From: Nitrospirota bacterium
GTDB taxonomy: Bacteria > Nitrospirota > Leptospirillia > Leptospirillales > Leptospirillaceae
Reading direction: 5' to 3'
Length of the DNA stretch: 48,321 bases
NCBI GenBank assembly: GCA_021827365.1
Contig: JAKAWK010000002.1
Span: 1-48,321, forward strand
Under the pieces are notes generated by a model. The model did no database searches and was not told the origin of the DNA. It worked only from the letters and a program-made list of their open reading frames with translations. Position numbers and translations under genes: made by a program. Position 1 is the stretch's first letter. Every line of letters begins with the position of its first letter. Shown here in pieces: positions 6,903 through 23,788 of the stretch.

Positions 6903-6985
6903 TCCGGTCCTTTCGGATATTGGCATGAAAAGGGTGTGCCCCGCCGACGCGTGGACGGGCCGTTGGCCCCTTGATCAGTTTTCCC

Positions 6986-7013
6986 ATTATAACCCAAGAT
7001 TTCCCGGGATCAA
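6986..7013 (-). promoter_or_regulatory. Candidate sigma70-type promoter for the ubiE operon
   Basis: Minus strand TTGATC-16 nt-TATAAT, about 85 nt upstream of the ubiE start. Confidence 0.5.
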
Positions 7014-7078
7014 TCGAACTCTTCCGGACCCGAGCAATTCTCCTTGGAAGTCGTCCTGTGCTGTGGCACAATCAAGCC

Positions 7079-8614
7079 ATGAGCCTCCAGAAAATCGCCC
7101 TCATCGACATCGGATCGAACTCCATGCGCCTCGAGATCGTGGCCATTCGGGGGGGCGATTTCTGGACCGTTGCCCGCTACAAGAGTTCGGCCCGAATCGC
7201 CTCAGGAATGTATCCCTCGCTTCTGATAACTCCGGAGGCTATCGACCGGGCCTGCCGGGCTCTCGAAGATTTTCGCCGCCGGATCGGTCTCCATCAGGCC
7301 GATGAGGTCCGGTGCGTCGCCACATCGGCTGTCAGGGATGCCAAAAACCGCCATGAGGTTCTCGAGCGCCTGTCGGCCTCCCTGTCAGGAGAGGTCGAGG
7401 TCCTGTCGGGAGAGCAGGAGGGCCGGTACAGTTGTCTTGGGGTCCAGAACGGGTTCGACCAGCCGGATGCCCTCGTTTTCGACATCGGAGGCGGAAGCGC
7501 CGAGCTGATCGACCTCCGGGACAATCACCCGAGGAAAATCCTGACCCTTCCGCTGGGGGCTGTCCGTCTGTCCGAGATGTTTTTCGAAAATCGGGGGCGG
7601 CCGACTCCCGCCGAATGGAAAAAAATGGAGCGATATATCACTGTCACGCTAGAAGAGTCCGGACTCTTCGACCGATCCTTTCCGGCCCTGATCGGAGTGG
7701 GCGGAACGGCTCGTCAGGTGGCGCGCATTTCGCAAAAGATCCGATCCTACCCTTTTTTCCCCGACATCCACCATTACGAGATTCCCGCCCGGGAGGTGGC
7801 CCGGATCACCAAACGGACCGGCCGCAGGCTCACTCCCGAGCAGGCGCGGACCTTCAACATCGGGGCTGACCGGGCCGACATCCTTCCCGCGGGACTTTCG
7901 GTCATCAGTGCGATCACCTCCCTCTCCGGGGCCCCCATTCTGACATTTTCCCACTACGGACTCCGCCAGGGACTCTTCATGGAACTCTATCACAAGTCCA
8001 ACGCCATTGAGGAAGGCCCCGTGGGCCGGGCGACACTTAGGCGCCTCTCCCGCCGTTACGGCCGGATCCGGGATTCGAAGCCGCTTCGGGAGACCCTTCA
8101 CGAACTCCTCAAGCGCCTTCTGCCGGCCCCCCTCCAGTCGCCCAGACTCCTCCTCCTTTGCGACATGATGGGAACCCTGGCCCTGCTCCCCGTTTTTTAC
8201 AACCCCTCTCCCAACACCCGGGAGCTCTGGGATCTCCTTTTGCATGGGGATCTTCCGGGACTTTCCCAGCGGGACCGCCTCCTGTGCGGCCTGATCCTCT
8301 GCCAGACGGAAGACCGGACGGGACGGGCCAAAAAGAAGGGCCATCCCTACCTTCGCCACCTGACAAAGGAAGACCAGCGCCTTCTTGGCCTCCTTTCTCC
8401 CCTCCTGGGACTCGCGCGCGACATTCTCCTCTCTTCGGGCGGAAAGGAGGCCGCCCTGTCCTACCGGGCCCCGGTCCTCAGGGTCATGCCCCGTGATCTC
8501 GAGGAGTCGGACGAATCACTCTCCCTCCTGGCCACCGAAAGCCGGGAGATCGGCCTGGGACACCCCCTGTCGGTACAGTGGTTTTCAGAACCGAAAATCC
8601 GTCCCGAAGACTGA
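7079..8614 (+). CDS. ppx: Ppx/GppA-family exopolyphosphatase / pppGpp phosphatase
   Basis: MSLQKIALIDIGSNSMRLEIV and VFDIGGGSAELIDL; IGVGGTARQVARI. Start at 7079 chosen because the family N-terminus begins there. Confidence 0.9.
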   Translation: MSLQKIALIDIGSNSMRLEIVAIRGGDFWTVARYKSSARIASGMYPSLLITPEAIDRACRALEDFRRRIGLHQADEVRCVATSAVRDAKNRHEVLERLSASLSGEVEVLSGEQEGRYSCLGVQNGFDQPDALVFDIGGGSAELIDLRDNHPRKILTLPLGAVRLSEMFFENRGRPTPAEWKKMERYITVTLEESGLFDRSFPALIGVGGTARQVARISQKIRSYPFFPDIHHYEIPAREVARITKRTGRRLTPEQARTFNIGADRADILPAGLSVISAITSLSGAPILTFSHYGLRQGLFMELYHKSNAIEEGPVGRATLRRLSRRYGRIRDSKPLRETLHELLKRLLPAPLQSPRLLLLCDMMGTLALLPVFYNPSPNTRELWDLLLHGDLPGLSQRDRLLCGLILCQTEDRTGRAKKKGHPYLRHLTKEDQRLLGLLSPLLGLARDILLSSGGKEAALSYRAPVLRVMPRDLEESDESLSLLATESREIGLGHPLSVQWFSEPKIRPED

Positions 8615-8732: not shown

Positions 8733-9590
8733 TCAGGGGGATTGGGCGCGGACAAAACGACTCCCCCAAAAATAGGCCAAGGATAAAACCAGAATCACGC
8801 CGGCCCCGGTCAGGGTCTCGGTCAGGGGAGAGTCGGAAACGACCTCGGTCATGAATGTCGTCACCAGGACGAAAAGTCCCACGAGAAGACTCAAAAGGAC
8901 CACCGCCCACCCCATCAGGCGCGACAGGCGCACTCCCCCGAGATCGGACCGTTCGATCAGGCGGGCGATCCAGAGCCCGTTAGCTCCGTCGGTGAGGCTC
9001 ATTCCCAGCACAAAGGCGATCCCCACGGCCAGCCCCTCCAGCTTCCCTCCCAGGGAGGCGGCGGCAAGGGAGAAGACGACCGTCTGGGAAAAGGTATCGA
9101 ACGAGACGGCAAAGAGCATTCCGAGAAGAACGGCGAAGACCGGCCGGTCGAGGGGAAAGGCCCGAAGAAGGATCCGGGCCCGGGGGCCCACTGGCGAAAA
9201 AGGGACTCCGGACCCCGAGCGGACCAGGGAAATGCCGTTGGCCCCGGCCATTCCCAGGAGAAAAAATCCCGAAAAGAGACCTCCGGCGAGGGAGAGAGGC
9301 GGAGGAACCCGAACATGCAGAAGGACCAGGTTGACAATGAGCCCTCCGAGCGTCAGGACGACAATCCCGTGGCCCAGGGAAAAAAAGAGACCGGTCCATC
9401 TGACCATCCTTTTTCGGACCGACTGGAACCTCAGGATCGCATCGATGGCCGTCAGATGATCGGGATCGAGACCATGGCGGACCCCCATCCCGAAAGCCGT
9501 CAGGACAAGGAGGAGGCTTTCGGCAACAGGTCCCCGGGCCAGGGAGAAGGAAGATGTCCACCCTGTTGCGGGTCCGGGAAACCCTGTCAT
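8733..9590 (-). CDS. NiCoT-family nickel/cobalt transporter
   Basis: Signature HGLDPDHLTAIDAILR plus LGHGIVV, GMLFAVSFDTFSQT and LGMSLTDGANG motifs of HoxN/NixA-type permeases; adjacent to hyp genes. Confidence 0.9.
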   Translation of the reverse strand: MTGFPGPATGWTSSFSLARGPVAESLLLVLTAFGMGVRHGLDPDHLTAIDAILRFQSVRKRMVRWTGLFFSLGHGIVVLTLGGLIVNLVLLHVRVPPPLSLAGGLFSGFFLLGMAGANGISLVRSGSGVPFSPVGPRARILLRAFPLDRPVFAVLLGMLFAVSFDTFSQTVVFSLAAASLGGKLEGLAVGIAFVLGMSLTDGANGLWIARLIERSDLGGVRLSRLMGWAVVLLSLLVGLFVLVTTFMTEVVSDSPLTETLTGAGVILVLSLAYFWGSRFVRAQSP

Positions 9591-9603
9591 CCTTCAGCTC
9601 CTT

Positions 9604-10644
9604 TCAGCAAATCCGGGGGAGCGGATCCCCCAGAAGCCAGTCCACGGTCCGAGTTCCGCCCATGAGGGTCTTCATCCGGACACACCCCGAGGGGAAGTTC
9701 GGGCGTCCTCTTCCGACCCGTCCGAGGGAGACCGCCTCACGTCCCGCGGGATGATTCCTCATCGCCCCAAGGAGGGTGTCGGCCGACTCGGGCCGGCACA
9801 CGGCCAGAAGCCGGCCTTCGTTGGCCAGGTAGAGAGGATCGATCCCCAGAAGTTCGGAGACTCCCTTCACCTCGGGACGGATGGGGATTGCGGCTTCCTC
9901 GATCTCGAAGGAAAGCCCCGAAAGACGGGCCCATTCGTTCAGTGTCGCCGCGACCCCTCCCCGGGTCGGATCCCGGAGACAGACCAGCCCCGGGCCACTT
10001 TCCACCATGGCCCCCACCAGCCCGTGGAGAGGCGCCGAATCGGAACAGAGCGAGGTGGCGAGACCCCAGTTTTCCCGGGCGGCGAGAACGGACGCTCCGT
10101 GGTCTCCCACCGGTCCCGAGAGAAGGAGGGCATCTCCCGGCCGGATTCCGGAAGGATCAAGATTCACCCCGGGGGGGATCCTTCCTATCCCGGCGGTGTT
10201 GATGTAGATCCCGTCCCCCTTGCCCCGTTCCACGACCTTGGTGTCCCCCGCCACCACCGAGACCCCGCAGGACCGGGCCGCTTCCCCCATGCTCCGGGCG
10301 ATCCGGACAAGGTCGGCCAGAGGAAATCCCTCCTCGAGAACGAACCCTGCCGTCAGGTAGAGGGGAAGCGCCCCTCCCATGGCCAGATCGTTCACCGTCC
10401 CGTGGACGGCGAGAGATCCGATGTCCCCTCCCGGAAAGAAAACGGGAGAAATCACGAATGAGTCCGTGCTCATGGCCCACCGCCCCTCCGAAAGATCCAG
10501 CTGGGCCTGGTCGCCCTCCTTTCTGAGCCACGGATTGTCGAAGGCGGGGAGGAAGATCTCTTCCACGAGCTGACAGGAAGCCCGTCCCCCGCTTCCCTGG
10601 ACCATCTCAACGCGCCCCTTTTCAAGATCAAGCCTCGGGCCCAT
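9604..10644 (-). CDS. hypE: Hydrogenase expression/formation protein HypE
   Basis: GSGGRASCQLVEEIFLPAF...STDSFVISPVFFPGGDIGSLAVHGTVNDLAMGGA and C-terminal PLPRIC. Start set to the internal ATG at 10644 (GTG at 10665 also possible). Confidence 0.95.
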   Translation of the reverse strand: MGPRLDLEKGRVEMVQGSGGRASCQLVEEIFLPAFDNPWLRKEGDQAQLDLSEGRWAMSTDSFVISPVFFPGGDIGSLAVHGTVNDLAMGGALPLYLTAGFVLEEGFPLADLVRIARSMGEAARSCGVSVVAGDTKVVERGKGDGIYINTAGIGRIPPGVNLDPSGIRPGDALLLSGPVGDHGASVLAARENWGLATSLCSDSAPLHGLVGAMVESGPGLVCLRDPTRGGVAATLNEWARLSGLSFEIEEAAIPIRPEVKGVSELLGIDPLYLANEGRLLAVCRPESADTLLGAMRNHPAGREAVSLGRVGRGRPNFPSGCVRMKTLMGGTRTVDWLLGDPLPRIC

Positions 10645-10661
10645 AGATCCCCGTCCCCCGC

Positions 10662-11783
10662 TCACGAGACCGCCCCCTCCCGGTCTCCGTAGTGGAAAAC
10701 GGCCGCACAGGCCCCCTCCGCGCTGACCATGCAGGCTCCGACCGGCGTGTCGGGGGTGCAGATCGTTCCGAATATCCGGCAATCCCGGGGACCCTTGACG
10801 CCCTTCAGGATGTCTCCGCATTCGCAGATCCCCGGGTCGGAGACATGGCCGACCTCGATCGAAAATCGCCTTTGGGCATCGAAAAAACCAAACTCTTCCC
10901 GGATCGCAAGACCGCTTTGGGGAAGGAGCCCGAGACCCCGCCATTCGAAGGCGGGGGCCCTTTCGAAGACCCGGGATATCAGCTCGAGCGACCGGAGATT
11001 CCCTTCAGGAGCCACCGCGCGGGCATATTCGTTTTCCACCTCCGAACGGCCTTCCGCAATCTGGGAGAGGAGCATCCGGAGGGCCAGCAGGATGTCCAGA
11101 GGCTCGAATCCTGCCACCACCAGGGGAACCTTGTGGATCCGGGCCACAAAGTCGTAGGGGCGTGTGCCGATGACCGTGCTGACGTGGGAGGGACCGATGA
11201 TGCCGTCGAGGGATGTCCCGGACAGGATGGCCTCCATGGCGGATGGAGTCAGCACATGGTTTGCGAAGACGGAAAAATTCCGAAGACCCCGTCTCTTAGC
11301 TTCCAGGATCACGGCGGCCGTGGGGGGGGTGGTCGTCTCGAATCCGATGGCGAAGAAGACGACGTCCCGGTCGGGATGGGTCTCCGCCAGGGCCAGGGCT
11401 TCCATGGCGGAGATGACGGTTTTGATCTCCCCTCCTCTGGCCCGGGCCTTCATGAGGGTCATCGCGTGCGAGCCCGGGACCCTGAGAACGTCCCCGTAGG
11501 TTGCGAGAACGGCTCCCTTTTCCAGGGAGAGATCGATCGCCGCGTCGATCCGGCCCTTGGGAAGGACGCAAACCGGGCATCCCGGCCCATGGACCATCCG
11601 GATTTCCGGGGGAAGGAGTTCGAGAAGCCCGAACCGGTGAAAGGCATGGGTATGGCCACCGCAGAATTCCATGATCCGCACGGGGGTCCGGGGAAGTCTC
11701 CTGGCCAGGGTGCCAAGCGAAGCCAGAAGGGACCGGCCAAGCTCCGGATCACGAAATGACTCGAGATATCTGAGATCAGACAT
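10662..11783 (-). CDS. hypD: Hydrogenase formation protein HypD
   Basis: IMEFCGGHTHAFHRFGL, VHGPGCPVCVLP, AIGFETTTP, CECGDILKG. Confidence 0.96.
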   Translation of the reverse strand: MSDLRYLESFRDPELGRSLLASLGTLARRLPRTPVRIMEFCGGHTHAFHRFGLLELLPPEIRMVHGPGCPVCVLPKGRIDAAIDLSLEKGAVLATYGDVLRVPGSHAMTLMKARARGGEIKTVISAMEALALAETHPDRDVVFFAIGFETTTPPTAAVILEAKRRGLRNFSVFANHVLTPSAMEAILSGTSLDGIIGPSHVSTVIGTRPYDFVARIHKVPLVVAGFEPLDILLALRMLLSQIAEGRSEVENEYARAVAPEGNLRSLELISRVFERAPAFEWRGLGLLPQSGLAIREEFGFFDAQRRFSIEVGHVSDPGICECGDILKGVKGPRDCRIFGTICTPDTPVGACMVSAEGACAAVFHYGDREGAVS

Positions 11784-12012
11784 CCTCCCCTCCTTCGAAG
11801 CCGGCAGCTTCCCTCATGAGGGCGAGGGTCTTCTGCGCCTCCCCGGGGTCGAGCCGGCTCAGGGCAAAGCCCACATGGACGATGACAAAGTCCCCCTTCC
11901 GAAGATCCTCGACCAGAACGGTCGAGACGTCCTGGAGAACGCCTCCCAGGCGCACCCTGGCCTGTGAATCCCCCAGAATCTCCTCCACCCTTGCCGGAAC
12001 AGCAAGACACAT
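11776..12012 (-). CDS. hypC: Hydrogenase assembly chaperone HypC
   Basis: MCLAVPARVEEILGDSQARVRLGGVLQDVSTVLVEDLRKGDFVIVHVGFALSRLDPGEAQKTL; N-terminal MC essential motif. ORF track over-extends upstream. Confidence 0.95.
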   Translation of the reverse strand: MCLAVPARVEEILGDSQARVRLGGVLQDVSTVLVEDLRKGDFVIVHVGFALSRLDPGEAQKTLALMREAAGFEGGEDV

Positions 12013-12028
12013 CGATCCTTCTCCCCTT

Positions 12029-14422
12029 TTACCCGATTCGGGCGTGATTCTCCCGGGCCCACACGGCCCAGGCCTGTCCCAGAGCCAATCCCCCGTCGTT
12101 TGCCGGAACCCGCAGGGGTTCGACGATCCGGAATCCGGTTCCTTCGAGGCGCTTCCGGAGGAGTCCTGCCAAAAGGCGGTTCTGAAAGACCCCTCCCGAC
12201 AAGATGAGAGTCGAGAGACCGGTCTGCTCCCGTCCGATTTGAACCCACTCCCCCAGTCCCGTCGCGAGGGCCTCATGAAAAAGACGGGCTCCCCTCTCCC
12301 GAGACGGCTCTTTGGCGAGATGGTCGAAAAGCGGACGAAAGTCGAGGATTCCCGCGCTGATCCGATGGAACCCTCCTGTCCGGCCGGCCGGATCCGGATG
12401 CCCCTTTCGGCCCCAGGCCTCGAGCTCCATCGCTCCCTGTCCCTCGTACGAAAGCCGTTCCCGGCCCCCCAGAAGGGCGTAGGCCGCATCAAAAAGACGG
12501 CCGGCGCTTGTGGTCCGGGGAAAGAGTCCGGGAGCTCCCCCCTCAAGAAGGCCCAGAAGATCTCCTGCCCCCGGGGCCCGAAAGCGCCGGAGCGCCTCCT
12601 CTTTCCGCCCCAGGGCGTTAAGCACCGCCATCCCCATCCGCCAGGGCTCCCGGAAGGCCCGGGCCCCTCCCGGAACGGGAAACGGGAAAAAATGGCCCAG
12701 GCGCGTCCACCCCGACCGGTCCACCCGGAGAAGCTCCCCTCCCCAGAAGCTTCCGTCCGTCCCCAGCCCGAACCCGTCCAGCGCCAGTCCCAGAACAGGT
12801 CCCTCCATGACCCGGTCGGCCATCACCGACGCCACATGGGCGTGATGGTGCTGGACGGGAGTCACCGGAATCCCCCATTCCGTGCCCAGGGAGAATGCCA
12901 GCCGGCTCGAGGGAAAGTCCGGGTGGAGATCGCAGGCCAGGTGGGTCGGCCGTCTCCCCTCCCGCTCGATGAATCGCACCAGGGTCTCCCTGAACGATTC
13001 CTGGCTCTCGAAGGATTCGAGATCTCCCAGATGGGGAAGGAGCAGGGCCCGTCCGTTCCGGACCCGGCAGGGAGCGATCTTCTGGTGAGCCCCCAGGGCC
13101 AGCACGACCGGGCCGGAGGAAGGGCCTTTTCCCCGGACAATCCCGAAGGAGGCGGGGACCCATCCCCGGGAGCGGCGAAGAAGAACGGCCCCCTTTTTTG
13201 AAGGAAGGGCCAGACTGTCGTCCTGGCGTTCCCGGACAGGACGGCCATGAGCGAGGATGCCCTCCACCTTTCCCCGGAAAAACCCCAGGGCCTCCGGGAG
13301 GCTTGCGGCAATCGGGCCCCCTCCCGGATTGGCGCTCGTCATGACGAGGGGGGGAAGATCCTCTCCGTCCTCCCCGAAAAGAAGGTGATGAAGGGGGGTC
13401 GAGGGAAGAAAGAGGCCGATCCGGTCGAGGCCGGGAGTGAGACTCTCCCGGGCGACCGGGGCCCCTTTCCGGTAGGGCAGCAGAACGATCATGTTCTCCG
13501 GGGCCAGCAGAAGACGGCGGGCTGCCGGAGAGATCCGCGCCAGGGTCCCCGCGATGGCCAGAGATCCTGCCATCACCGCCAAAGGCTTCTCCGGCCGGTT
13601 CTTGAGAGCCCGGATGCGAAGGATCGCCTCACGGTTCCGGGCATCGCAGGCTAGGTGAAATCCCCCAAGCCCCTTGACGAGAAGGACCCCCCCCGACCGG
13701 AGGCGGCGCCCCGCCTCCTCCAGATAGCCTTCGGTTCTCCTTCCCCGCCCGTCTCCCTCCAGGAACCAGGTTTTCGGACCGCAGTCCGGACATCCGAGGG
13801 TCTGGGCATGAAAGCGGCGATCGGCCGGATCCTCAAATTCCCTCCGGCATGCGGAACACAGGGGAAAGCGCCGGAGGGTGGTGCGGACCCTGTCGAAGGG
13901 AGGATGCAGGGCGATCGAATACCTTGGACCGCAGGCGGTGCAGGAGATCAGCGGATACCGGAACCGGCGGTCTTCCGGGTCGAAGAGCTCCCGGAGACAG
14001 TCCTGACAGACCGCCGAATCCGGCAGGAGCTGGGAGATGTCTCCCTCCTCCCCTCTCCTCTCACGGGACTGCCGGATGGAAAACCCCTTCTCCCGCGGCC
14101 TGGGCGCCAACTCTGCCCGGCTGAGCCGGTCGATTCTGGAGCCGGAAGGGGCCTTTCGCACAAGCTCCTCAAGAAACCTGCCAAGACAGCTCCGGCGCCC
14201 CTGAATCTCCAGATGGACACCCCCGGGGGTGTTGGCGACCGAGCCCGCAAGAGCCAATTCCCTCGCCAGGCGGACAACGAAGGGCCGAAAGCCCACCCCC
14301 TGGACCCGTCCCGAGATCTCAAGGGAGAACCGGGCCAGATCCGCGGCCGAATCCTCGAAGGATGGCCCTTCCGTTTTCACCGGACTCGGATTCATGGAGC
14401 TCTCCGGCTCAGGCCCGGGCAT
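12029..14422 (-). CDS. hypF: Carbamoyltransferase HypF
   Basis: 797 aa; acylphosphatase domain GRVQGVGFRPFVVRLA; zinc-finger cysteines CQDCLREL...CTACGPRY...CSACRREF...CPDCGP; HHHAHVASVMAD. Confidence 0.96.
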   Translation of the reverse strand: MPGPEPESSMNPSPVKTEGPSFEDSAADLARFSLEISGRVQGVGFRPFVVRLARELALAGSVANTPGGVHLEIQGRRSCLGRFLEELVRKAPSGSRIDRLSRAELAPRPREKGFSIRQSRERRGEEGDISQLLPDSAVCQDCLRELFDPEDRRFRYPLISCTACGPRYSIALHPPFDRVRTTLRRFPLCSACRREFEDPADRRFHAQTLGCPDCGPKTWFLEGDGRGRRTEGYLEEAGRRLRSGGVLLVKGLGGFHLACDARNREAILRIRALKNRPEKPLAVMAGSLAIAGTLARISPAARRLLLAPENMIVLLPYRKGAPVARESLTPGLDRIGLFLPSTPLHHLLFGEDGEDLPPLVMTSANPGGGPIAASLPEALGFFRGKVEGILAHGRPVRERQDDSLALPSKKGAVLLRRSRGWVPASFGIVRGKGPSSGPVVLALGAHQKIAPCRVRNGRALLLPHLGDLESFESQESFRETLVRFIEREGRRPTHLACDLHPDFPSSRLAFSLGTEWGIPVTPVQHHHAHVASVMADRVMEGPVLGLALDGFGLGTDGSFWGGELLRVDRSGWTRLGHFFPFPVPGGARAFREPWRMGMAVLNALGRKEEALRRFRAPGAGDLLGLLEGGAPGLFPRTTSAGRLFDAAYALLGGRERLSYEGQGAMELEAWGRKGHPDPAGRTGGFHRISAGILDFRPLFDHLAKEPSRERGARLFHEALATGLGEWVQIGREQTGLSTLILSGGVFQNRLLAGLLRKRLEGTGFRIVEPLRVPANDGGLALGQAWAVWARENHARIG

Positions 14423-15239
14423 GGGTAAGAGTCCCGGCCTTCTCCCGACGGGCCAGAAGCCAGGAGAGCCAGAGACCGAACCCTTCCCCTGTCCGGGCCG
14501 ACAGGGCGATGATCTCCCCCCGGGGGTTGACCCCGCGGAGGGAACTTTCCGCCCGGGTCCGGTCGAAGTCCAGATGGGGAAGAAGATCCGACTTGGTAAG
14601 GAGGGTCAGGTCGGCCTCCCGGAAGATCCGGGGGTATTTGAGGGGCTTGTCCTCCCCTTCCGTCACCGAAAAAAGAACCACACGGGCGGTCTCTCCAAGG
14701 TCAAAAAGAGCCGGACAGACCAGATTCCCGATATTTTCGATGACCAGGACCGTCCCGGGAAAAAGTTCAAGATCGCCTGCCGCATGGGCCACCTGATGGG
14801 CATCGAGATGGCAACCGGCTCCCGTGTTGATCTGCACCGCCTGAACCCCCAACTTCCGTATCCGGTCCGCGTCACGGGAGGTCTCCTGGTCTCCTTCGAT
14901 GACGGCCATGGGACACGTGGTCCCCAGGGCGCTGATGGTCCGTTCAAGAAGGGTGGTTTTCCCCGATCCCGGAGCCGAGAGGAGATTCAGGACGAATAGG
15001 CCGTGTTCCCGGAAAAAATCCCGGTTGTCGCGGGCGATGCGGTTGTTCTTTCCCAGGATGTCCTGCTCGATCCGGATCGTCCGATTAACTTCCGACTCCT
15101 CCGGGACAATGGAGGGTGCCCCCGGACCGGAGCCTTCGTAGCCCCCTCCCTCATGATGGTGATGAGGAAGAGCAACACCCCGCCTCTTCTCTCCCCCGAC
15201 CCCATGTCCCGGTGCCCCGCATCCGCATTCCACGCACAT
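14409..15239 (-). CDS. hypB: Hydrogenase nickel incorporation GTPase HypB
   Basis: MCVECGCG N-terminus, His-rich stretch PHHHHE, P-loop LLSAPGSGKTTLLE, GAGCHLDA, TKSDLL. Confidence 0.96.
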   Translation of the reverse strand: MCVECGCGAPGHGVGGEKRRGVALPHHHHEGGGYEGSGPGAPSIVPEESEVNRTIRIEQDILGKNNRIARDNRDFFREHGLFVLNLLSAPGSGKTTLLERTISALGTTCPMAVIEGDQETSRDADRIRKLGVQAVQINTGAGCHLDAHQVAHAAGDLELFPGTVLVIENIGNLVCPALFDLGETARVVLFSVTEGEDKPLKYPRIFREADLTLLTKSDLLPHLDFDRTRAESSLRGVNPRGEIIALSARTGEGFGLWLSWLLARREKAGTLTHARA

Positions 15240-15619
15240 TACCGCTCTCCTTTGCCGGACTTTTCCAGCATTCGCCTGTCCCGGACGACCAGTTCGCAAA
15301 GACGGAACTCCGTCCCCCCCGTTGGAAGGAGCACCGGGCTGCCGCAAGCGGGACACTCCCTCAGGGGCTCCCGAATCGGCACGGTCTCCTCACATTTAAG
15401 GCACCAGCCCCTTCCCGGAATCTCCCTGATTTCAAGGACGGCCGATTCGGTGACGGATCCCCGGGCGGCCACGTCGAAACTGAAGCGGAGCGCGGGAAGC
15501 GAAACTCCCGAAAGCTCCCCCACCTCCAGGACGATCCGGTCGATCCTGTCGAAACTGCCCCGGGAAGCCTCGGCCTCGCAGAGCTCGAGGAGATTCATCA
15601 CGAGCGAGAGTTCATGCAT
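15239..15619 (-). CDS. hypA: Hydrogenase maturation factor HypA
   Basis: MHELSLVMNLLELCEAEA and zinc site CLKCEETVPIREPLRECPACGSP. Stop/start TAATG overlap with hypB. Confidence 0.95.
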   Translation of the reverse strand: MHELSLVMNLLELCEAEASRGSFDRIDRIVLEVGELSGVSLPALRFSFDVAARGSVTESAVLEIREIPGRGWCLKCEETVPIREPLRECPACGSPVLLPTGGTEFRLCELVVRDRRMLEKSGKGER

Positions 15620-16787
15620 TCTTCCCCTCTGTCTTTTGCCCGAAAGAGCCCTCCCGAACCACGACCGGCGCGCAGGGATCGAAGACCCAGAGGGCCAGGG
15701 AGACCGTCTTCCGAAGATTCGCCCGGCATCCTTCCTTCCGGGAGACGACGGAAAACCACTCGGCAAAGGATCCCCTTTCCGGGGCGAAGGTCCATTCGGT
15801 GGGTGCCAGGATCCGGACCTTGCTCACCGTTCTCTCTCTTTTGGTCCACCGGTGAACCAGGAGCCCACGGGCGGTCTCTCCCCAGGCGATGGCCTCCCCT
15901 CTCCCAAGAGAGCGGGAAGTAATCTTCGCAAGAGAGGCGCTCATGTCCCCGGCGGCCTCCTCTCCTCCGGACCAGAGGGAAAGCTCGGTCAATCGGGCCG
16001 CCAAACGGGAGGACAGGGAGCGGCCGCATCCGGAAAGAGCGGCGACCAGGGGATGACTCTCCATGCGGGCCAAGGGACCGGTCTCCCGCCCTTCTTCGTC
16101 CAGCCGGGGGAAGGCAAGAAAATCGACCTCCTCCAATCTCCGGGCGAGGCGGTCCGTCTCCTCCCCGCCATTCAGGCGCAAGGCTGGGAGAAGTCTGACG
16201 GCCGCATCCGCATCGGGAGTGAACCGACCGGCTCGTCTCGCCACCGGGGAGAGGTCTCGGCTCGTCCGGATCCAGTCCTCCCAATCCCCCTCCGATTTCC
16301 GGGCAAGAAATCGGGAGACGCTCTCCCCCAGAACGAACTCCTCAAGCAGTTCCCGGAAATCCCTGAAAAAATCCCTGGTCGGACCAGAGCCCACTCTTCC
16401 GAGATCCCGGAGCTTCGTCCACATCCTGGTCTCGGAGAGAAAGGGGGGCGTCTCTCCGGCCACCGGCAGAAGAAGGGCCCGGAGACTCTCCGAAAGACTC
16501 TCCCTAAGGAGCTCCCCGTCGAAGAAGGGGTCTCCCGTTTCCTCACCTCGGGCCGCCTTCAGGGCCAGAAGGGCCAACTTCTCCTGGGCCTTTCCGCAGA
16601 GATGGAAGAGGGCCCGGAGTCTCAAAAGCGAGATCCCTTCGTCGACCCCCTCGAGAAGCCCGAGATGGGAGAGGTCCCGGGGAGAGAGGGAAAGGCGATA
16701 TTCCCCGGACTTCCCTTCCAGTGACAGGTGAAGGCTTCCCGGCGGGTCATTTTCCATCGGCATCACGACAGATCCCGGGCAATCCAC
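15612..16787 (-). CDS. hupK: HupK/HoxV-like hydrogenase accessory protein (degenerate large-subunit-like scaffold)
   Basis: 391 aa between hupH and hypA. C-terminal WVFDPCAPVVV resembles the large-subunit DPCLAC motif; N-terminal LFHLCGKAQ resembles a degenerate L1 motif. Position matches HupK/HoxV. Confidence 0.75.
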   Translation of the reverse strand: MDCPGSVVMPMENDPPGSLHLSLEGKSGEYRLSLSPRDLSHLGLLEGVDEGISLLRLRALFHLCGKAQEKLALLALKAARGEETGDPFFDGELLRESLSESLRALLLPVAGETPPFLSETRMWTKLRDLGRVGSGPTRDFFRDFRELLEEFVLGESVSRFLARKSEGDWEDWIRTSRDLSPVARRAGRFTPDADAAVRLLPALRLNGGEETDRLARRLEEVDFLAFPRLDEEGRETGPLARMESHPLVAALSGCGRSLSSRLAARLTELSLWSGGEEAAGDMSASLAKITSRSLGRGEAIAWGETARGLLVHRWTKRERTVSKVRILAPTEWTFAPERGSFAEWFSVVSRKEGCRANLRKTVSLALWVFDPCAPVVVREGSFGQKTEGKNA

Positions 16788-17563
16788 TCCAGAAAGTCCC
16801 GATAATCTTCCAGTGCCTGACGGATATCTTCCGGCGTCGCGGCAATTTCATCGGGAATATCTGCAACCGAAAGAGCGTCCAGAAGGGGAATCCCTTCGGG
16901 ATTTTTATAGAGGACCCGCCACAATCCCGAAAAACCGGTGGAAAGCACCTGGCAATCCCCGTATCCCTTCGAGACCAGGGAGATTCGTCCCTGCGAGCAG
17001 ACCCGGTCGATCCATTCGGCGTCTCCTTCCGACAGCGGGAGCTTGTTGAGAAAGATCCGGTGATTTTTTCCGATCGGACCAAACGTTGCCAGATGATGCG
17101 CCGCCTCTTCCATGAGAGGAAGGGCATTCATGAGCTGGGGCCTGAGACGGACCGCGGCCGGGTCATCGGGAGCGAGTCCCCCGGAGGCAAGGAAGGAGGA
17201 GGGTTCCGGGGGCGAAAGAAGGATCCCGGGAGCCCGACCGACTTCGATAGAGGAAAGGACCACTCCCTCGCCTCCCTCCGGCCGGCTCCCCAAAAGCCAG
17301 ATTCCCGGATAGACCGATTCCCGGAGATAACGAACCTCGCCCGTCTCCCCGGGTCCTGGCTTTATCATTCCGGAGATTTCCCCCTCGCCCAAGAGAGCGA
17401 CGAGGCTCCTCCGGTCTTCGGAGGAGAGCCCGTCCAGATCGGGACCCCCAAGGTGGGTCGGATTCAAGGTGGTCCTTTCAAGAGCCGCCCCCAGCCTTTC
17501 AAGGAAGTGGAACACGGGACGGGTGACAGGCTCCGTCCCACCCTCCAGGGACCGGCCGGTCAT
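16763..17563 (-). CDS. hupH: HupH/HyaF (HoxQ)-family hydrogenase expression protein
   Basis: 266 aa. C-terminal GYGDCQVLSTGFSGLWRVLYKNPEGIPLLDALSVADIPDEIAATPEDIRQALEDYRDFLEWI fits the HupH C-terminal domain; context. Confidence 0.85.
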   Translation of the reverse strand: MTGRSLEGGTEPVTRPVFHFLERLGAALERTTLNPTHLGGPDLDGLSSEDRRSLVALLGEGEISGMIKPGPGETGEVRYLRESVYPGIWLLGSRPEGGEGVVLSSIEVGRAPGILLSPPEPSSFLASGGLAPDDPAAVRLRPQLMNALPLMEEAAHHLATFGPIGKNHRIFLNKLPLSEGDAEWIDRVCSQGRISLVSKGYGDCQVLSTGFSGLWRVLYKNPEGIPLLDALSVADIPDEIAATPEDIRQALEDYRDFLEWIARDLS

Positions 17564-17856
17564 GTTCCTCCTCCCTGACCGGAGGAGGAGGGGAGTCCCG
17601 GAAAAAACCTTTCGAAATCTGTCTCACCCGAATGTGAGGCCTCAAGGGCGTCAAGGGCCAGGTCGATCTGCCGGGCCTCCTCCTCATCCAGCACACGACG
17701 GGCATGCCCGGCAAAGACGAGAACCCAAGCTCCTTCCTCTTGAGGACCGACTAAGGCGAGGTTCACCGTTCGCCTCTCCCCCCGTCCCTCGCACAGGGTC
17801 CTGAACGAAAATTCTGACGAAGGCCCGATCACCCGCATGGGAAGTCCCAGACACAC
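17560..17856 (-). CDS. hupF: HupF/HoxL (HypC-family) hydrogenase chaperone
   Basis: From GTG at 17856: (M)CLGLPMRVIGPSSEFSFRTLCEGRGERRTVNLALVGPQEEGAWVLVFAGHARRVLDEEEARQIDLALDAL. ATGA overlap with hupH. Confidence 0.88.
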   Translation of the reverse strand: MCLGLPMRVIGPSSEFSFRTLCEGRGERRTVNLALVGPQEEGAWVLVFAGHARRVLDEEEARQIDLALDALEASHSGETDFERFFPGLPSSSGQGGGT

Positions 17857-17870
17857 TGCTCGATCCTTTT

Positions 17871-18437
17871 CTAGAGGCTGGAGAGAAGGGCCCGGGGAAA
17901 AAGAAGATCCCCGGGCCTTCCGTCCTGGCGGAGAAGGGGTTCGACGCCCCACTCCCGGAGAACAGAGGCTCCTGTCTCGAGGGCCAGCGCCATCTTCTCC
18001 CTGATCAGCCTGGAAAGCTCCCCCCCAAAGGTCTCCCAATCCAGGGGTTGGAGCCCGACGAGGGCCATTTCCCGTGGATTCTTCCCGAGAAGGTCGCACA
18101 AAACGAGCACCTCCTGAAACCCCGTCTGGTGAAGACTCATCTTTCCGGAGTGAAGGTAGGCCGGAACCTCCTCGTTTCTCCGAAGAATCATTGTCCCGGG
18201 AGGTCTTCCGAAATCGACCGCATCGAAAATCAGAAGGTGGCTCGCCTCCTGGATGTAGGGCATCAGCAGAAGACCCTGAGTTCCTCCGTCCATGAGACGA
18301 ACGGAGCCGGGAAAGGAGTAGACCCGCCCGAAAGCCTCGACAGCCCGAACGCCAAACCCTTCGTCGCCCCAGAGCAGATTTCCAATGCCGAGCACAAGAA
18401 CCCCACCCGGGGCCGGGGTTTTCTCCTCCACCTTCAC
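17871..18437 (-). CDS. hupD: [NiFe]-hydrogenase maturation endopeptidase (HyaD/HupD/HoxM)
   Basis: VLGIGNLLWGDEGFGVRAVEAF, MDGGTQGLLLMPYIQEASHLLIFDAVDFG, SLHQTGFQEVL. Confidence 0.95.
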   Translation of the reverse strand: MKVEEKTPAPGGVLVLGIGNLLWGDEGFGVRAVEAFGRVYSFPGSVRLMDGGTQGLLLMPYIQEASHLLIFDAVDFGRPPGTMILRRNEEVPAYLHSGKMSLHQTGFQEVLVLCDLLGKNPREMALVGLQPLDWETFGGELSRLIREKMALALETGASVLREWGVEPLLRQDGRPGDLLFPRALLSSL

Positions 18438-18444
18438 CCCCCGC

Positions 18445-19149
18445 CTACTTGCGGAAAATCCTGAAACCGCTGATCATCGTGCTGACAGAGGTCTGCCGGC
18501 CAACGATATCCTCCCTGACGGCCATGTATATGTGCCCGACCACAAAGACGAGAATAAACCACATACCCAGGTGGTGCAGGGTCCTGAGGTCCTGGGGCTG
18601 GCCTATGAGCGGCGTCACCCATCCGAAAAGACGGTCGGCCCAGGATCCGTCTCCCAGGCCTTCGGCATAGAGGGCTCCGCCCGTCAGGATCATCAAAAGG
18701 CTTCCCAGAACAAAGAAGAAAAACATGGCGAGTTGGGCCATCGGATTGTGCCCGTAGTATTTCCTGGCGCGCTTTTCCAGAAAGAGGTTCCACCGGGCCT
18801 CGTAGCCCAGGGACTGCCACCAGGAGCTCTCCCCCAACGGGAGATGAAAGAGCTCCCGGGAATATTCGTTTCCAAAAACGGCCCAGAGCAGGCGGACCAC
18901 AAAGCCCCCGGCGAAGAGCCAGGCGGCCACGAAATGAACAAACCGCACATCTCCCATCAGGAAGTGATGGCTGGCCTCACCCATGAGGCTCGGAAAGGGG
19001 TGGGCGATCAGAAGGCCGGTTGCGGCCAGAACGAGGATCGAACCGGCGTTGATCCAGTGCCAGAGGCGAACGGGGGCTTCATAGATATAAAAAACCCCCC
19101 TTTCTTCTTCGGGAGCCGCCCGGAACCCTGCCGCATCTTCGTGTCTCAT
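18445..19149 (-). CDS. hupC: Ni/Fe-hydrogenase b-type cytochrome subunit
   Basis: YEAPVRLWHWINAGSILVLAATGLLI; RFVHFVAAWLFAGGFVVRLLWAVFGNEYS; LRTLHHLGMWFILVFVVGHIYMAVREDI (heme-b His residues). Start set at 19149. Confidence 0.95.
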   Translation of the reverse strand: MRHEDAAGFRAAPEEERGVFYIYEAPVRLWHWINAGSILVLAATGLLIAHPFPSLMGEASHHFLMGDVRFVHFVAAWLFAGGFVVRLLWAVFGNEYSRELFHLPLGESSWWQSLGYEARWNLFLEKRARKYYGHNPMAQLAMFFFFVLGSLLMILTGGALYAEGLGDGSWADRLFGWVTPLIGQPQDLRTLHHLGMWFILVFVVGHIYMAVREDIVGRQTSVSTMISGFRIFRK

Positions 19150-19171
19150 CAATCTGTCCCTCCTTCCTCTC

Positions 19172-20965
19172 CTAACAGACCCTGACGCTGTGAAGAGCCT
19201 CTCCGGCCGGGCCGAGGACATGGGTCGAACAGGCCAGGCAAGGGTCGAAGCTGTGAAGGGTCCGCAGGATCTCGAGCGGTTGCTGAGGGTTTGAGAGCGG
19301 GGTGTTCAGGAGAGCGGCCTCGTAGGCTCCGATCTGGCCCTTCGGATCCCGCGGAGAGGCGTTCCAGGTGGTCGGGACGACCGCTTGGTAGTTTTCGATT
19401 TTTTCATCCCGGATCCGGATCCAGTGGGCAAGAGCGCCTCTCGGCGCTTCTCCGAATCCCACCCCCTTGCATTCTCGGGGCCAGGTGGCGGGCTCCCACT
19501 TGTCGGTGTTGGCCGTCGAAGTGTCCCCGGCCCGGATGTTGGCCATGAGCCGGTCGTGGAAATAACGCATCTTGTGGGCCGCCCATGACGCCTCGAGACC
19601 CCGCGCGGCCGTCCTTCCCAGGGTCGAGAAAAGGGCGGAAACCGGAAGGTCGAGCGTCCTGAGCAGATTGTCCACAGGCTCCTTGAACTCCGGTTTTTTC
19701 TGGGCGTAGCCGACCACCCAACGGGCGAGGGGCCCCACCTCCATGGCGTGTCCATTCCAGCGAGGGGCCTTGATGAAGGAGTATTTTCCCTCCTCGTCGA
19801 GTTCCCGGATGTCGGTGGGCGTTCCTTTCGTGTTCTTCCCCAGGACATAGTGGGGATCGGTGAGGCCATCCCACGGGTGTAGACCCTTCGTCTCGTCCGG
19901 ATAGCGATACCAGGAATGAACCACATATTCCTTCACCTCTTCGGGATTCCGGAGATCGACGGGGTGAACGGCGGAGAGATCCCCGTTCACGATGGCCCCC
20001 CGGGGAAGCAGGAGATTTTCGGGACTATCGTTGTTGGCCCGATCGGGGAATTCCCCGTAGGCCAGAACATTTTTCCCCGAAAGCCCCGCCCCGTAAAGCC
20101 AGTCCTTGTAATAGGAGGCAATGGCGATGAGGTCCGGAATGTAAACCTGGTCGATGAAGGTGATGGTCCGGTCGATGATCTCGGAGACGAAATTGAGGCG
20201 TTCCATGTTCAGGGGCGCCCCGGCCGCCAGATCTCCGTCGATGTTGATCGCACAGGGAACTCCGCCCACCAGCCAGTTCGGGTGGGGATTCTTACCCCCG
20301 AAGATGGTCTGGATCTTGACGATGTCCTTCTGGAAATCAAGGGCCTCAAGATAGTGGGTCACGGCCAGAAGATTGACGGCCGCCGGCAGCCGGTAGGAGG
20401 CATTCCCCCAGTACCCGTTGGTGAAGGGTCCCAGTTGACCGGATGCGACAAATTTTTTGAGGCGGTTCTGGACATCACGGAAATAGCCGGGAGAGGAATT
20501 CGGCCAGCGGGAAATTTTTTGTGCTATGGCGGAGGTCTCCCGGGGATCGGCCTTGAGAGCGTCCGGGACATCGACCCAGTCCATGGCATGGAGGTGGTAG
20601 AAATGGACCAGATGGTCCTGGGCATAAAGGGTCGAATGCATGAGATTGCGGATGATGTTCGCATTTTCCGGAATCCTGATTCCCAGGGCATCCTCCACCG
20701 TCCGGACGGAAACCAGGGCATGAACCCCCGTGCAGACGCCACAGATCCGCTGGGTAAAGGCCCAGGCATCGCGGGGATCCCGACCCTTCAGGATCGTCTC
20801 GATTCCCCGCCACATCGTTCCCGAGCTGACCGCATTGCGGATGACATTGTCGTGGTCGATGTTGACCTCGCACCTCAGATGGCCCTCGATCCGGGTCACG
20901 GGATCAACCACCACCCGGCGTCCCGAGTTGTCGAGGCGGAATCCCTGGGTTTCATAGACACTCAT
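19172..20965 (-). CDS. hupL: [NiFe]-hydrogenase large subunit (group 1 uptake type)
   Basis: 597 aa; [24 protein letters not shown] (L1) and [24 protein letters not shown] (L2 plus cleavable C-terminal peptide). Confidence 0.97.
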
Positions 20966-21001
20966 GGGGTCTGCTCCTTCCCTTGTCCTTGATGATCCTG
21001 G

Positions 21002-22096
21002 TCAGACCGGCCCCTTGTCTCCGGACTGGTCTTTTCCCTCTTCCTTCCCGGTTTTTTTGAGCCCGGTCAGAAGGGCATGGGCCGCCACCCCGGCTCCGGC
21101 CGCCCCCAGGGCGACCATCCCGATCGTGTCGGCATCGGCTTCCACCCCGAAACCCGTGAGGTTCGAAAGATGTTTGTAAAAGGGACCCTTGTCCCAGAAA
21201 TCTTTTTCGGAACATCCGATGCAACCGTGTCCGGACTTGATCGGGAAAGAGACGCCATTGTTCCACCCGGTGGTCGAACAGGCGTTGTAGGTCACCGGGC
21301 CCTTGCATCCGACCTTGTAAAGACAGTATCCCTTCCTGGCCCCTTCATCATCCCAGCGCTCGACATACTGCCCGGCGTCAAAGTTCGGCCGCCGGTAGCA
21401 CTTGTCGTGGATTCTCTGGCTGTAGAACATCTTCGGCCGTCCTTCCCTGTCGAGATCGGGAAGTCGGCCGAAGGCGGTAATGTAGGTGATGACGCCTGTC
21501 ATCACCTCGGCAATGGGGGGACATCCGGGAATCTTGACCACCGGGAGGTCGGTCAGAACCTTGTGAATGGGTGTGGCCTGGGTGGGATTGGGCTTTGCAG
21601 CCTGGACGCATCCCCAGGAGGCACAGGAGCCCCAGGCGATGACGGCCTTGGCCTTCGAGGCGACGCGCCTGAGCTGGCCGACGAAGGGTTTTCCCCCGAC
21701 AATGCAGTACATTCCCTCTTCATTCAGGGGAGGGTTTCCCTCCACGGCCAGGATATATTCTCCGGGATACTTCTCCATGATGCCGTCGATGCAGGCCTCT
21801 GCCTGGAATCCCGCCGCCGCCATGAGGGTGTCGTCGTAATCAAGGGAAATCATCGACAGGATGACATCCTTGGCCAACGGATGGGAGGAGCGGATGAAGG
21901 ATTCGCTGCAGCAGGTACATTCGAGACCGTGCAGCCAGAGGACGGGAACCCGCGGCTTGGTTTCCAGGGCCTGGGCGATTTCATAGACGGTGGCCGGACC
22001 AAGGGACAAACCGGCGGCCATGACACTGCAAAACTTGAGAAAGCTCCTCCGGGTGATTCCCTGGTTTCGCATGACCTCGTAGACTGTCTCGGACAT
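21002..22096 (-). CDS. hupS: [NiFe]-hydrogenase small subunit, Tat-exported, O2-tolerant type
   Basis: Twin-Arg [73 protein letters not shown]-terminal hydrophobic anchor. Start set at 22096 ([13 protein letters not shown]). Confidence 0.96.
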
Positions 22097-22430
22097 GGTC
22101 CCTCCTCGGTGAATTCGGACACCTGGTCGGATAGATATTCTCTTTCCGACGGAGAATGGGATAGGCGTCGTCGATGACGTCAAATGACTGGTGAGCCGGC
22201 TTCATCGCCGGGAGGGAAAAAGAGCAAGGACGAAACTTGAGAGCGGCTCATGGAAAATAAGGCCGACAGCAAAACTATAACCCCATGAAAAACAGGTTGC
22301 AAGGTCCGAAGCGGATCGCCACGGGGGGCTTGCACTCTTGATATCGCTTGACTTTATCAGCCGTGGTTGATAGCTTTTCGTAATAGGACTCTGGACGGGC
22401 AAAAGACAAATTCACCAAGGATGATCCCTT

Positions 22431-23129
22431 TTGGAACGGACCTCCCAGTACCCCGGTCTCCTGATCGCCATCGAAGGCACCGACGGGTCCGGAAAGACCA
22501 CCCAGGCCGAGCTCCTTAAACACTATTACCTCTCCCGTGGCGTCGCGGTCGTCGTCTCAGCCTGCAACACCGTCGAACTTATCCGTCGGGCCATCTCGGA
22601 TCTCAAGCAGCAGAACTTTCTCGATCCCCTGACTTTCAGCTTCCTCTACGCCGCCGATTTCGTCGACCGCTTCGAGCACCAGATCATTCCGGCGCTGGAA
22701 TCCGGCCAGCTCGTGATCGCCGAACAGTATGTCTATACGGTCTTCGGCCGGGCCATCCTCCGGGGAATCGCCCCCGAATGGATCGCGAACATCTTCGACT
22801 TTGCCCTGGTTCCGGCCAAGACCTTCTATCTCGACCTCCCTGTGGAGTCCCTTCTCGAGAGGATCCACTGGAAGACCCGCCAGGAGCGCTTCTTCGACTA
22901 TTATGAAGCGGGAATGGACATGAATCTTTCCAGCCGGAAAAAGGACTCCTTCGTCATCTACCAGCGCCGGCTCATCGAACTCTACCGGGAGATGGCCAAG
23001 TCCTACGGGATGGAGACCGTCGACGCGATGGCGCCCATCCATCGCCAGCAGAAGACCCTCCGGGCAAAAATCGACAATCTCCTGGCGACCCACCGCAAGG
23101 GAATGGTTTTGGCCGGAGGGGGCCGATGA
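22431..23129 (+). CDS. Thymidylate-kinase-like P-loop protein, paralogue A (TTG start)
   Basis: P-loop IAIEGTDGSGKTTQAELL; DRY motif replaced by EQY (VIAEQYVYTVFGRAILRG); atypical YYEAGMDMNLSSRKK. Confidence 0.8.
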   Translation: MERTSQYPGLLIAIEGTDGSGKTTQAELLKHYYLSRGVAVVVSACNTVELIRRAISDLKQQNFLDPLTFSFLYAADFVDRFEHQIIPALESGQLVIAEQYVYTVFGRAILRGIAPEWIANIFDFALVPAKTFYLDLPVESLLERIHWKTRQERFFDYYEAGMDMNLSSRKKDSFVIYQRRLIELYREMAKSYGMETVDAMAPIHRQQKTLRAKIDNLLATHRKGMVLAGGGR

Positions 23130-23788
23130 GCCACACCCCACCCCATTCCTACCCCGGTCGCCTCATCGTCGTCGAGGGCATCGACGGGTCCGGGAAATCC
23201 ACCCAGATGGACCTCCTGGCCGACTATTTCCAGTCCCGGGGCTTCGGGGTTCTGAAGAGCGCCTGGAATTCAAGTCCTGACATCTCTCCCGTCATCCGCA
23301 AAGCCAAGAAAAAACAGATCCTGACCCCCTATGCCTTCAGCCTCCTGCATGCCGCGGATTTCAGTTTCCGTTACACCTACGAAATCCTTCCGGCCATGGA
23401 GGCGGGCATGGTCGTCCTCTCGGACCGGTACATCTTCACGGCCATCGCCCGGGACTGCGCCCGGGGAATTCCCAAAAAGTGGCTCGTCTCGAATTTCCGC
23501 TTCGCCATCGTTCCCGACCTGACCTTCTTCTTCCGGGTGGATCCGGAGACCTCCTACCAGCGGATCACCCGCACGCGCCCCATCAAGTTCTACGAAGCCG
23601 GGATGGACATGAATCTCTCCACCAATCCCCGCGAATCCTATACCCTGTTCCAGTCCCGGGTCCTGTCCGAATACGAGGCCATGAAGGACGAATACGGCTT
23701 CCATGTGGTGGACGCCACCCTGAGCCTGGAGCGAACCCAGGCCCGGATGCGCCGCCTTCTGGGGCCCATCATCCGTTCCCTTTCCTGA
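23126..23788 (+). CDS. Thymidylate-kinase-like P-loop protein, paralogue B
   Basis: P-loop IVVEGIDGSGKSTQMDLL; VLSDRYIFTAIARDCARG; FYEAGMDMNLSTNPRESY; ATGA overlap with paralogue A. Confidence 0.82.
   Translation: MSHTPPHSYPGRLIVVEGIDGSGKSTQMDLLADYFQSRGFGVLKSAWNSSPDISPVIRKAKKKQILTPYAFSLLHAADFSFRYTYEILPAMEAGMVVLSDRYIFTAIARDCARGIPKKWLVSNFRFAIVPDLTFFFRVDPETSYQRITRTRPIKFYEAGMDMNLSTNPRESYTLFQSRVLSEYEAMKDEYGFHVVDATLSLERTQARMRRLLGPIIRSLS

Follow-up and report, generated by a model that had tools for sequence, protein, structure and literature searches.

Why should a Nitrospirota genome carry in tandem two divergent thymidylate-kinase-like (Tmk-like) genes of which one has lost the DR motif, and on what would their products act? 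The window analysed here (48,321 nucleotides) is contig 2 of a 2.25 Mb genome assembled in 155 contigs (87% complete) whose nearest kin are Leptospirillum-type Nitrospirota MAGs. A preliminary description had recognized two Tmk-like paralogues, A and B, joined by an ATGA overlap, and this was confirmed (Table 1). Gene A starts with TTG and has an AAGGA closely 5' of it, while gene B starts with ATG. A Pfam scan matched both to PF02223 (77 bits for A, 84 for B), and a promoter and terminator scan of the pair gave no useful signal. The adjacent pair was found in 17/21 Leptospirillaceae genomes, the other four being incomplete assemblies, and this adjacency rules out chance or artefact as its source.

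The difference between VIAEQYVY in A and VLSDRYIF in B also held on inspection. In the same way, the shared (F/Y)YEAGMDMNLS segment is present in both proteins, but it does not stand in for the DR motif as had been thought. It belongs to the LID loop, past the arginines R140...R145. The DR motif lies elsewhere, where a core strand ends, and its place is not taken by the segment. Residue numbers refer here to trimmed B (full protein minus 6).

Table 1. Features of the locus, in positions of the window
Feature	Position	Strand	Remark
Long Ppx/GppA, putative exopolyphosphatase	6971..8614	+	160.8 bits
Gene A, A-type ('gene 2') Tmk-like paralogue	22431..23129	+	232 aa; P-loop intact; DR -> EQ
P-loop GTDGSGKT of A	22476..22499	+	
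EQY of A (within VIAEQYVY), where the DR(Y/F) motif stands	22722..22730	+	E-Q throughout the Leptospirillaceae A rows (24/24)
LID segment YYEAGMDMNLS of A	22899..22931	+	
ATGA shared by the stop of A and the start of B (translational coupling)	23126..23129	+	
Gene B, B-type ('gene 1') Tmk-like paralogue	23126..23788	+	220 aa; every catalytic residue present
P-loop GIDGSGKS of B	23177..23200	+	lysine in 89/89 B-type rows
AWNSS of B	23261..23275	+	W, N in 89/89 B-type rows; E-P in canonical Tmk
HAADF of B	23348..23362	+	F; Arg in canonical Tmk (11/11)
DRYIFTAIARD of B	23423..23455	+	DRY (in VLSDRYIF) at 23423-23431; R-D; Y-Q in canonical Tmk (11/11)
LID segment FYEAGMDMNLS of B	23588..23620	+	E, G in 89/89 B-type rows

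Divergence from the housekeeping thymidylate kinase

A canonical tmk scoring 141 bits lies elsewhere in the window genome (G000:C77:5566-6135) and is directly followed by a gene resembling holB, tmk-holB adjacency being a common bacterial arrangement. A and B are therefore not the cell's housekeeping dTMP kinase. A higher-scoring PF02223 gene apart from the pair was likewise present in 30/31 genomes checked, with G058, which has no pair, as a plain control. In the exception, G002 (96% complete), the pair alone was seen and a missing contig is possible.

With canonical Tmk (TIGR00041, PF02223) the pair shares the fold, the P-loop, the general kinase layout and, in B, the DR motif. B passes the cut-off of the TIGR00041 equivalog profile (97.6 bits against 83.25), whereas A falls below it (76 bits). 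In known Tmk structures, dTMP is contacted by the E-P, Arg (DRxxH) and Y-Q positions. These were invariant in the 11 canonical rows of our alignment, whereas B-type proteins have W-N, F and R-D in 88-89 of 89 rows, some rows being near-duplicate copies of the same genomes. An ordinary duplicate dTMP kinase is thus disfavoured by the separate canonical tmk and by this family-wide replacement of dTMP-site residues, in line with the suspicion first raised from the sequence. A second (d)NMP kinase system, in which B would act on dTMP or another (d)NMP under regulation by A and the link with Ppx would be indirect, could draw on the PF02223 and TIGR00041 matches, but the same two observations make it quite unlikely.

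Two clades of paralogues in bacteria and archaea

In a scan of 84,980 genomes, B-type relatives were found in Nitrospirota, Acidobacteriota, Gastranaerophilales, Chloroflexota, Gracilibacteria and several archaeal groups, and the archaeal holders of the pair include Sulfolobales, Nitrososphaeria and Euryarchaeota. A second Tmk-like gene stands alongside in nearly all of these loci, and from bacteria to archaea the two genes usually overlap or lie a few bases apart. In Leptospirillaceae A precedes B, and in the other groups B precedes A.

The maximum-likelihood tree recovered an A-type clade (support 98/96) that contains the A of the window and is apart from the B-type sequences, with canonical Tmk outside on long branches. 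The A-type and B-type proteins form two paralogous clades of ancient origin. For the B branch of Leptospirillaceae, a basal position has weak support (85/86) and is unsure; all B-type residues are present in that branch.

Genes surrounding the pair

Among 124 proteins encoded within three genes of the pair at 24 diverse loci, the commonest families were Ppx-GppA (11), HD (10), CHAD (9) and histidine phosphatase of the SixA type (7), the HD domain being part of long Ppx and of CHAD-HD proteins. Ppx lies at most 3.5 kb from the pair in 5/5 of Nitrospira and its allies, 9/12 of Acidobacteriota, 5/6 of Nitrososphaeria and 6/6 of Sulfolobales. For instance, in Sulfolobales and several Nitrososphaeria the genes SixA, Ppx, B and A follow one another in this order with overlapping ends, and a CHAD or CHAD-like gene comes next. 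For biomining archaea, an earlier paper already depicted a cluster in which SixA, Ppx and CHAD accompany a gene labelled dTMP kinase (PMC10892726). Polyphosphate, which the preliminary description had named in passing as a substrate, is the lead favoured by these neighbourhoods. No Ppx or CHAD neighbour was found at the loci examined in Gastranaerophilales or most marine Euryarchaeota, which counts against a polyphosphate kinase.

In the window, 14 kb separate the long Ppx from the pair, and the distance is 0-3 kb in several sister Leptospirillaceae lineages; this Ppx is likely the partner of the pair. CHAD was not found in the genus of the window, so the CHAD link fails there. Downstream of the pair follow RpiB, GlyA and NrdR genes, which would suit a second (d)NMP kinase. 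Nevertheless, Leptospirillaceae were the sole group in which such neighbours were seen, while Ppx comes back in five lineages, and a nucleotide-metabolism operon was rejected on this ground.

The interval between the long Ppx and the pair (8733-22183) is occupied by NiFe hydrogenase structural genes, a cytochrome b gene and hyp/hup maturation genes (NicO, HypE-like, HypD, HypF, HypB-like and HupH). The same gap of 14-15 kb occurs in several close relatives while Ppx is 2-3 kb from the pair in others, and these mixed lengths suggest that the hydrogenase cluster was inserted or lost between them. In relatives without this cluster, a methyl-accepting chemotaxis protein gene can be found between Ppx and the pair (L042:2788-4653). 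In four Nitrososphaeria loci (L155-L158), genes for a PBP_like_2 phosphate-binding protein and an ABC transporter lie a few kb from the pair, in agreement with a phosphate island. In one Sulfolobales locus (L153, 9345-10581), the Ppx beside the pair is in two frames (9345-9908 and 9913-10581), perhaps by a frameshift or an assembly error.

Known polyphosphate kinases in pair-holding genomes

PPK1 (PF02503) has another fold and presumably the same product, polyphosphate. It is absent from the lineage of the window, with 0/31 in the Nitrospirota genomes checked and 0/19 in Leptospirillaceae, and it occurs in 2/40 pair-holding genomes. Among 247 Acidobacteriota, 3/33 genomes with the pair have PPK1 compared with 132/214 without it (Fisher p = 6e-9, shared ancestry ignored), so that pair and PPK1 are nearly mutually exclusive. 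Here, a genome counts as having the pair if it shows at least two strong matches; one more, in which a contig end interrupts the pair, was added, and six with just one copy, of a more divergent kind, were scored as without. These six (G461, G506, G530, G566, G612 and G636) hold one copy of 219-238 bits without a strong-scoring partner; unlike pair holders, 4/6 have PPK1, and they possibly represent a separate subfamily.

PPK2 (PF03976) is a P-loop kinase of the Tmk superfamily that acts on polyphosphate, and it was found in 23/48 pair-holding genomes. Neither A nor B matched PF03976 in the Pfam scan, which rules out their membership of PPK2. The window genome has its own PPK2 gene, away from the pair, and could thus make or use polyphosphate by this means, which counts against the pair as a polyphosphate kinase. 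No PPK2 was detected in 12 sampled Gastranaerophilales-type and 5 Sulfolobales pair-holding genomes, and both PPK1 and PPK2 were missing in 12/12 of the former.

The pair might also be a PPK2-like polyphosphate-dependent NMP/NDP kinase with A as allosteric partner, and not a polyphosphate synthase. This would account for the same operon evidence and for a fold near PPK2, P-loop kinases of such type are reversible, and some pair holders also carry PPK2. However, it would leave Gastranaerophilales devoid of PPK1 and PPK2 with no other known polyphosphate maker, and the PPK1 anti-occurrence suggests replacement of a synthase; we regard it as unlikely.

Hofmann et al. 2026 (J Biol Chem 302:111283) reportedly described a distinct crenarchaeal PPK family in Sulfolobus. 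Given the title of that work and the cluster drawn in PMC10892726, this family and the Tmk-like pair may be the same. The system of the window is a bacterial form of a family of which the archaeal representatives may be those described in 2026. The Sulfolobus enzyme resembles the pair in that polyphosphate activity is reported for it without PPK1 or PPK2, and Sulfolobales carry the pair beside Ppx. Reportedly, it also belongs to a Tmk-like family encoded beside Ppx. A later paper (PMC13318637) refers to a 'distinct PPK-type enzyme' from Sulfolobus as since reported. Crenarchaeota were already noted to make polyphosphate without a known PPK, and the same review states that no PPK-like protein was found in Leptospirillum ferrooxidans (PMC5328820).

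ST1543, a crystallised B-type protein

Single-chain AlphaFold2 models of A and B had a mean pLDDT of 92 and 93, respectively. The closest PDB structure to both was ST1543 of S. tokodaii (E 9e-18 for A, 4e-21 for B), canonical Tmk coming next. By sequence, 2plr matched B at 174 bits and A at 127, the next best being 71 and 55, and B is 43% identical to ST1543. This protein (STK_15430, 100% match) is the B-type gene of an operon SixA-Ppx-B-A-CHAD-like, in which the CHAD-like gene scores 21.5 bits, under the Pfam cut-off. Of the shared segments, ST1543 has WNSS, ATDFSDR, DRYIYTAYARD and the EAG-D of the LID, and it is the first of a tandem pair in its own genome. Unlike the Leptospirillaceae locus, where the order is A-B and Ppx is apart, its order is B-A within the operon, and its partner differs from A of the window by a Walker-A change of K to R and by DR -> DG, not EQ.

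The ST1543 deposits (PDB 2plr, 4nzy, 4rzx and 5h70) are labelled dTMP kinase, one of them with ADP, and published studies, by their titles, treat the protein as a thymidylate kinase. This counts against a polyphosphate kinase and would agree with a (d)NMP kinase. Nevertheless, S. tokodaii has besides ST1543 a second, separate tmk-type gene (C1:466121-466633). Furthermore, a Dali search with F. tularensis PPK2 placed ST1543 as the nearest non-PPK2 structure (PMC4748334).

A probable two-subunit polyphosphate kinase

What was observed is the gene pair, its conservation, the two clades of paralogues, the residue pattern, the Ppx, CHAD and SixA neighbours and the PPK1 anti-occurrence. Together with the published likeness of ST1543 to PPK2, these make it probable that A and B jointly form a polyphosphate kinase of the Tmk fold (an ATP/polyphosphate phosphotransferase), with a catalytic B and a degenerate partner A. 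Polyphosphate as substrate, the direction of the reaction, the heterodimer and the role of A are what we infer from them. B would be the catalytic subunit and would hold ATP by its P-loop and DR motif, while a conserved set of Arg, Lys and His could hold the phosphate chain at the place where canonical Tmk has dTMP, the candidate residues being R76, R95, R103, R107, R140, R145, K55 and H69. A, an ancient paralogue that has kept most of the basic residues and lost part of the catalytic centre, is most likely a half without catalysis in a heterodimer, where it would bind polyphosphate or regulate B. The pair would work against Ppx, which degrades polyphosphate, often together with CHAD, which binds it, and SixA.

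Polyphosphate is nearly universal, yet many organisms, among them Leptospirillum, Gastranaerophilales and Crenarchaeota, are without PPK1. The pair is a concrete candidate in these groups, placed under the database label thymidylate kinase and including a protein crystallised as such. More broadly, it is a possibility of slightly less than even weight that the pair represents a third, heteromeric PPK class across bacteria and archaea, derived from one ancient duplication, in which one subunit was degraded variously (DR -> EQ, K -> R, DR -> DG) and which stands in for PPK1.

Lineage-specific changes in the A-type paralogue

At the positions K18, D94, R95, R103, R107 and R140, all 89 B-type rows read K-D-R-R-R-R, and the DRY is kept in every one. 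B of the window has the whole B-type set, namely K18, W41-N42, H69, D72, R76, D94-R95-Y96, T99, R103, R107, R140, E151, G153, Q170 and Y177. At the same six positions, the A-type proteins of Leptospirillaceae read K-E-Q-R-R-R in 24/24 rows, those of other Nitrospirota, Acidobacteriota, Euryarchaeota and Nitrososphaeria R-D-R-R-R-R in 36/36, with the Walker-A lysine changed to arginine, and those of Sulfolobales (n=6) R-D-G-W-R-R in five and K-D-G-W-R-R in one. In Gastranaerophilales, the six catalytic and basic positions are intact in 19/21 A-type rows. Here, too, some rows are copies of one and the same genome. The A-type catalytic centre is thus altered differently from lineage to lineage, with most downstream arginines retained. 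Random variation of the DR motif among orthologues, which would have spoken against a division of roles, was not seen and drift is ruled out, since every Leptospirillaceae A row has EQ and every B-type row DRY. The loss being fixed by lineage, the early proposal of a catalytic and a regulatory subunit is plausible, in the form of one intact and one degraded partner.

The loss of catalytic residues from A-type copies in several lineages could also mean that there is no A-B complex, A being a decaying paralogue or an independent polyphosphate or nucleotide sensor on the same mRNA, which would be compatible with B as a polyphosphate kinase. On the other hand, the two genes stay side by side at almost every locus, bacterial or archaeal. 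Throughout the Leptospirillaceae rows, moreover, neither the downstream arginines nor the LID motif has been lost from A, which is therefore under selection, so that the absence of a complex seems rather unlikely. The pair also gives a natural set of examples in which one member of a probable paired enzyme lost catalytic residues on separate occasions. Since both copies look intact in most Gastranaerophilales, the inactivity of A-type proteins need not hold everywhere. In one Deltaproteobacteria MAG (L064, 6718-7779), the A-type gene is split into two frames.
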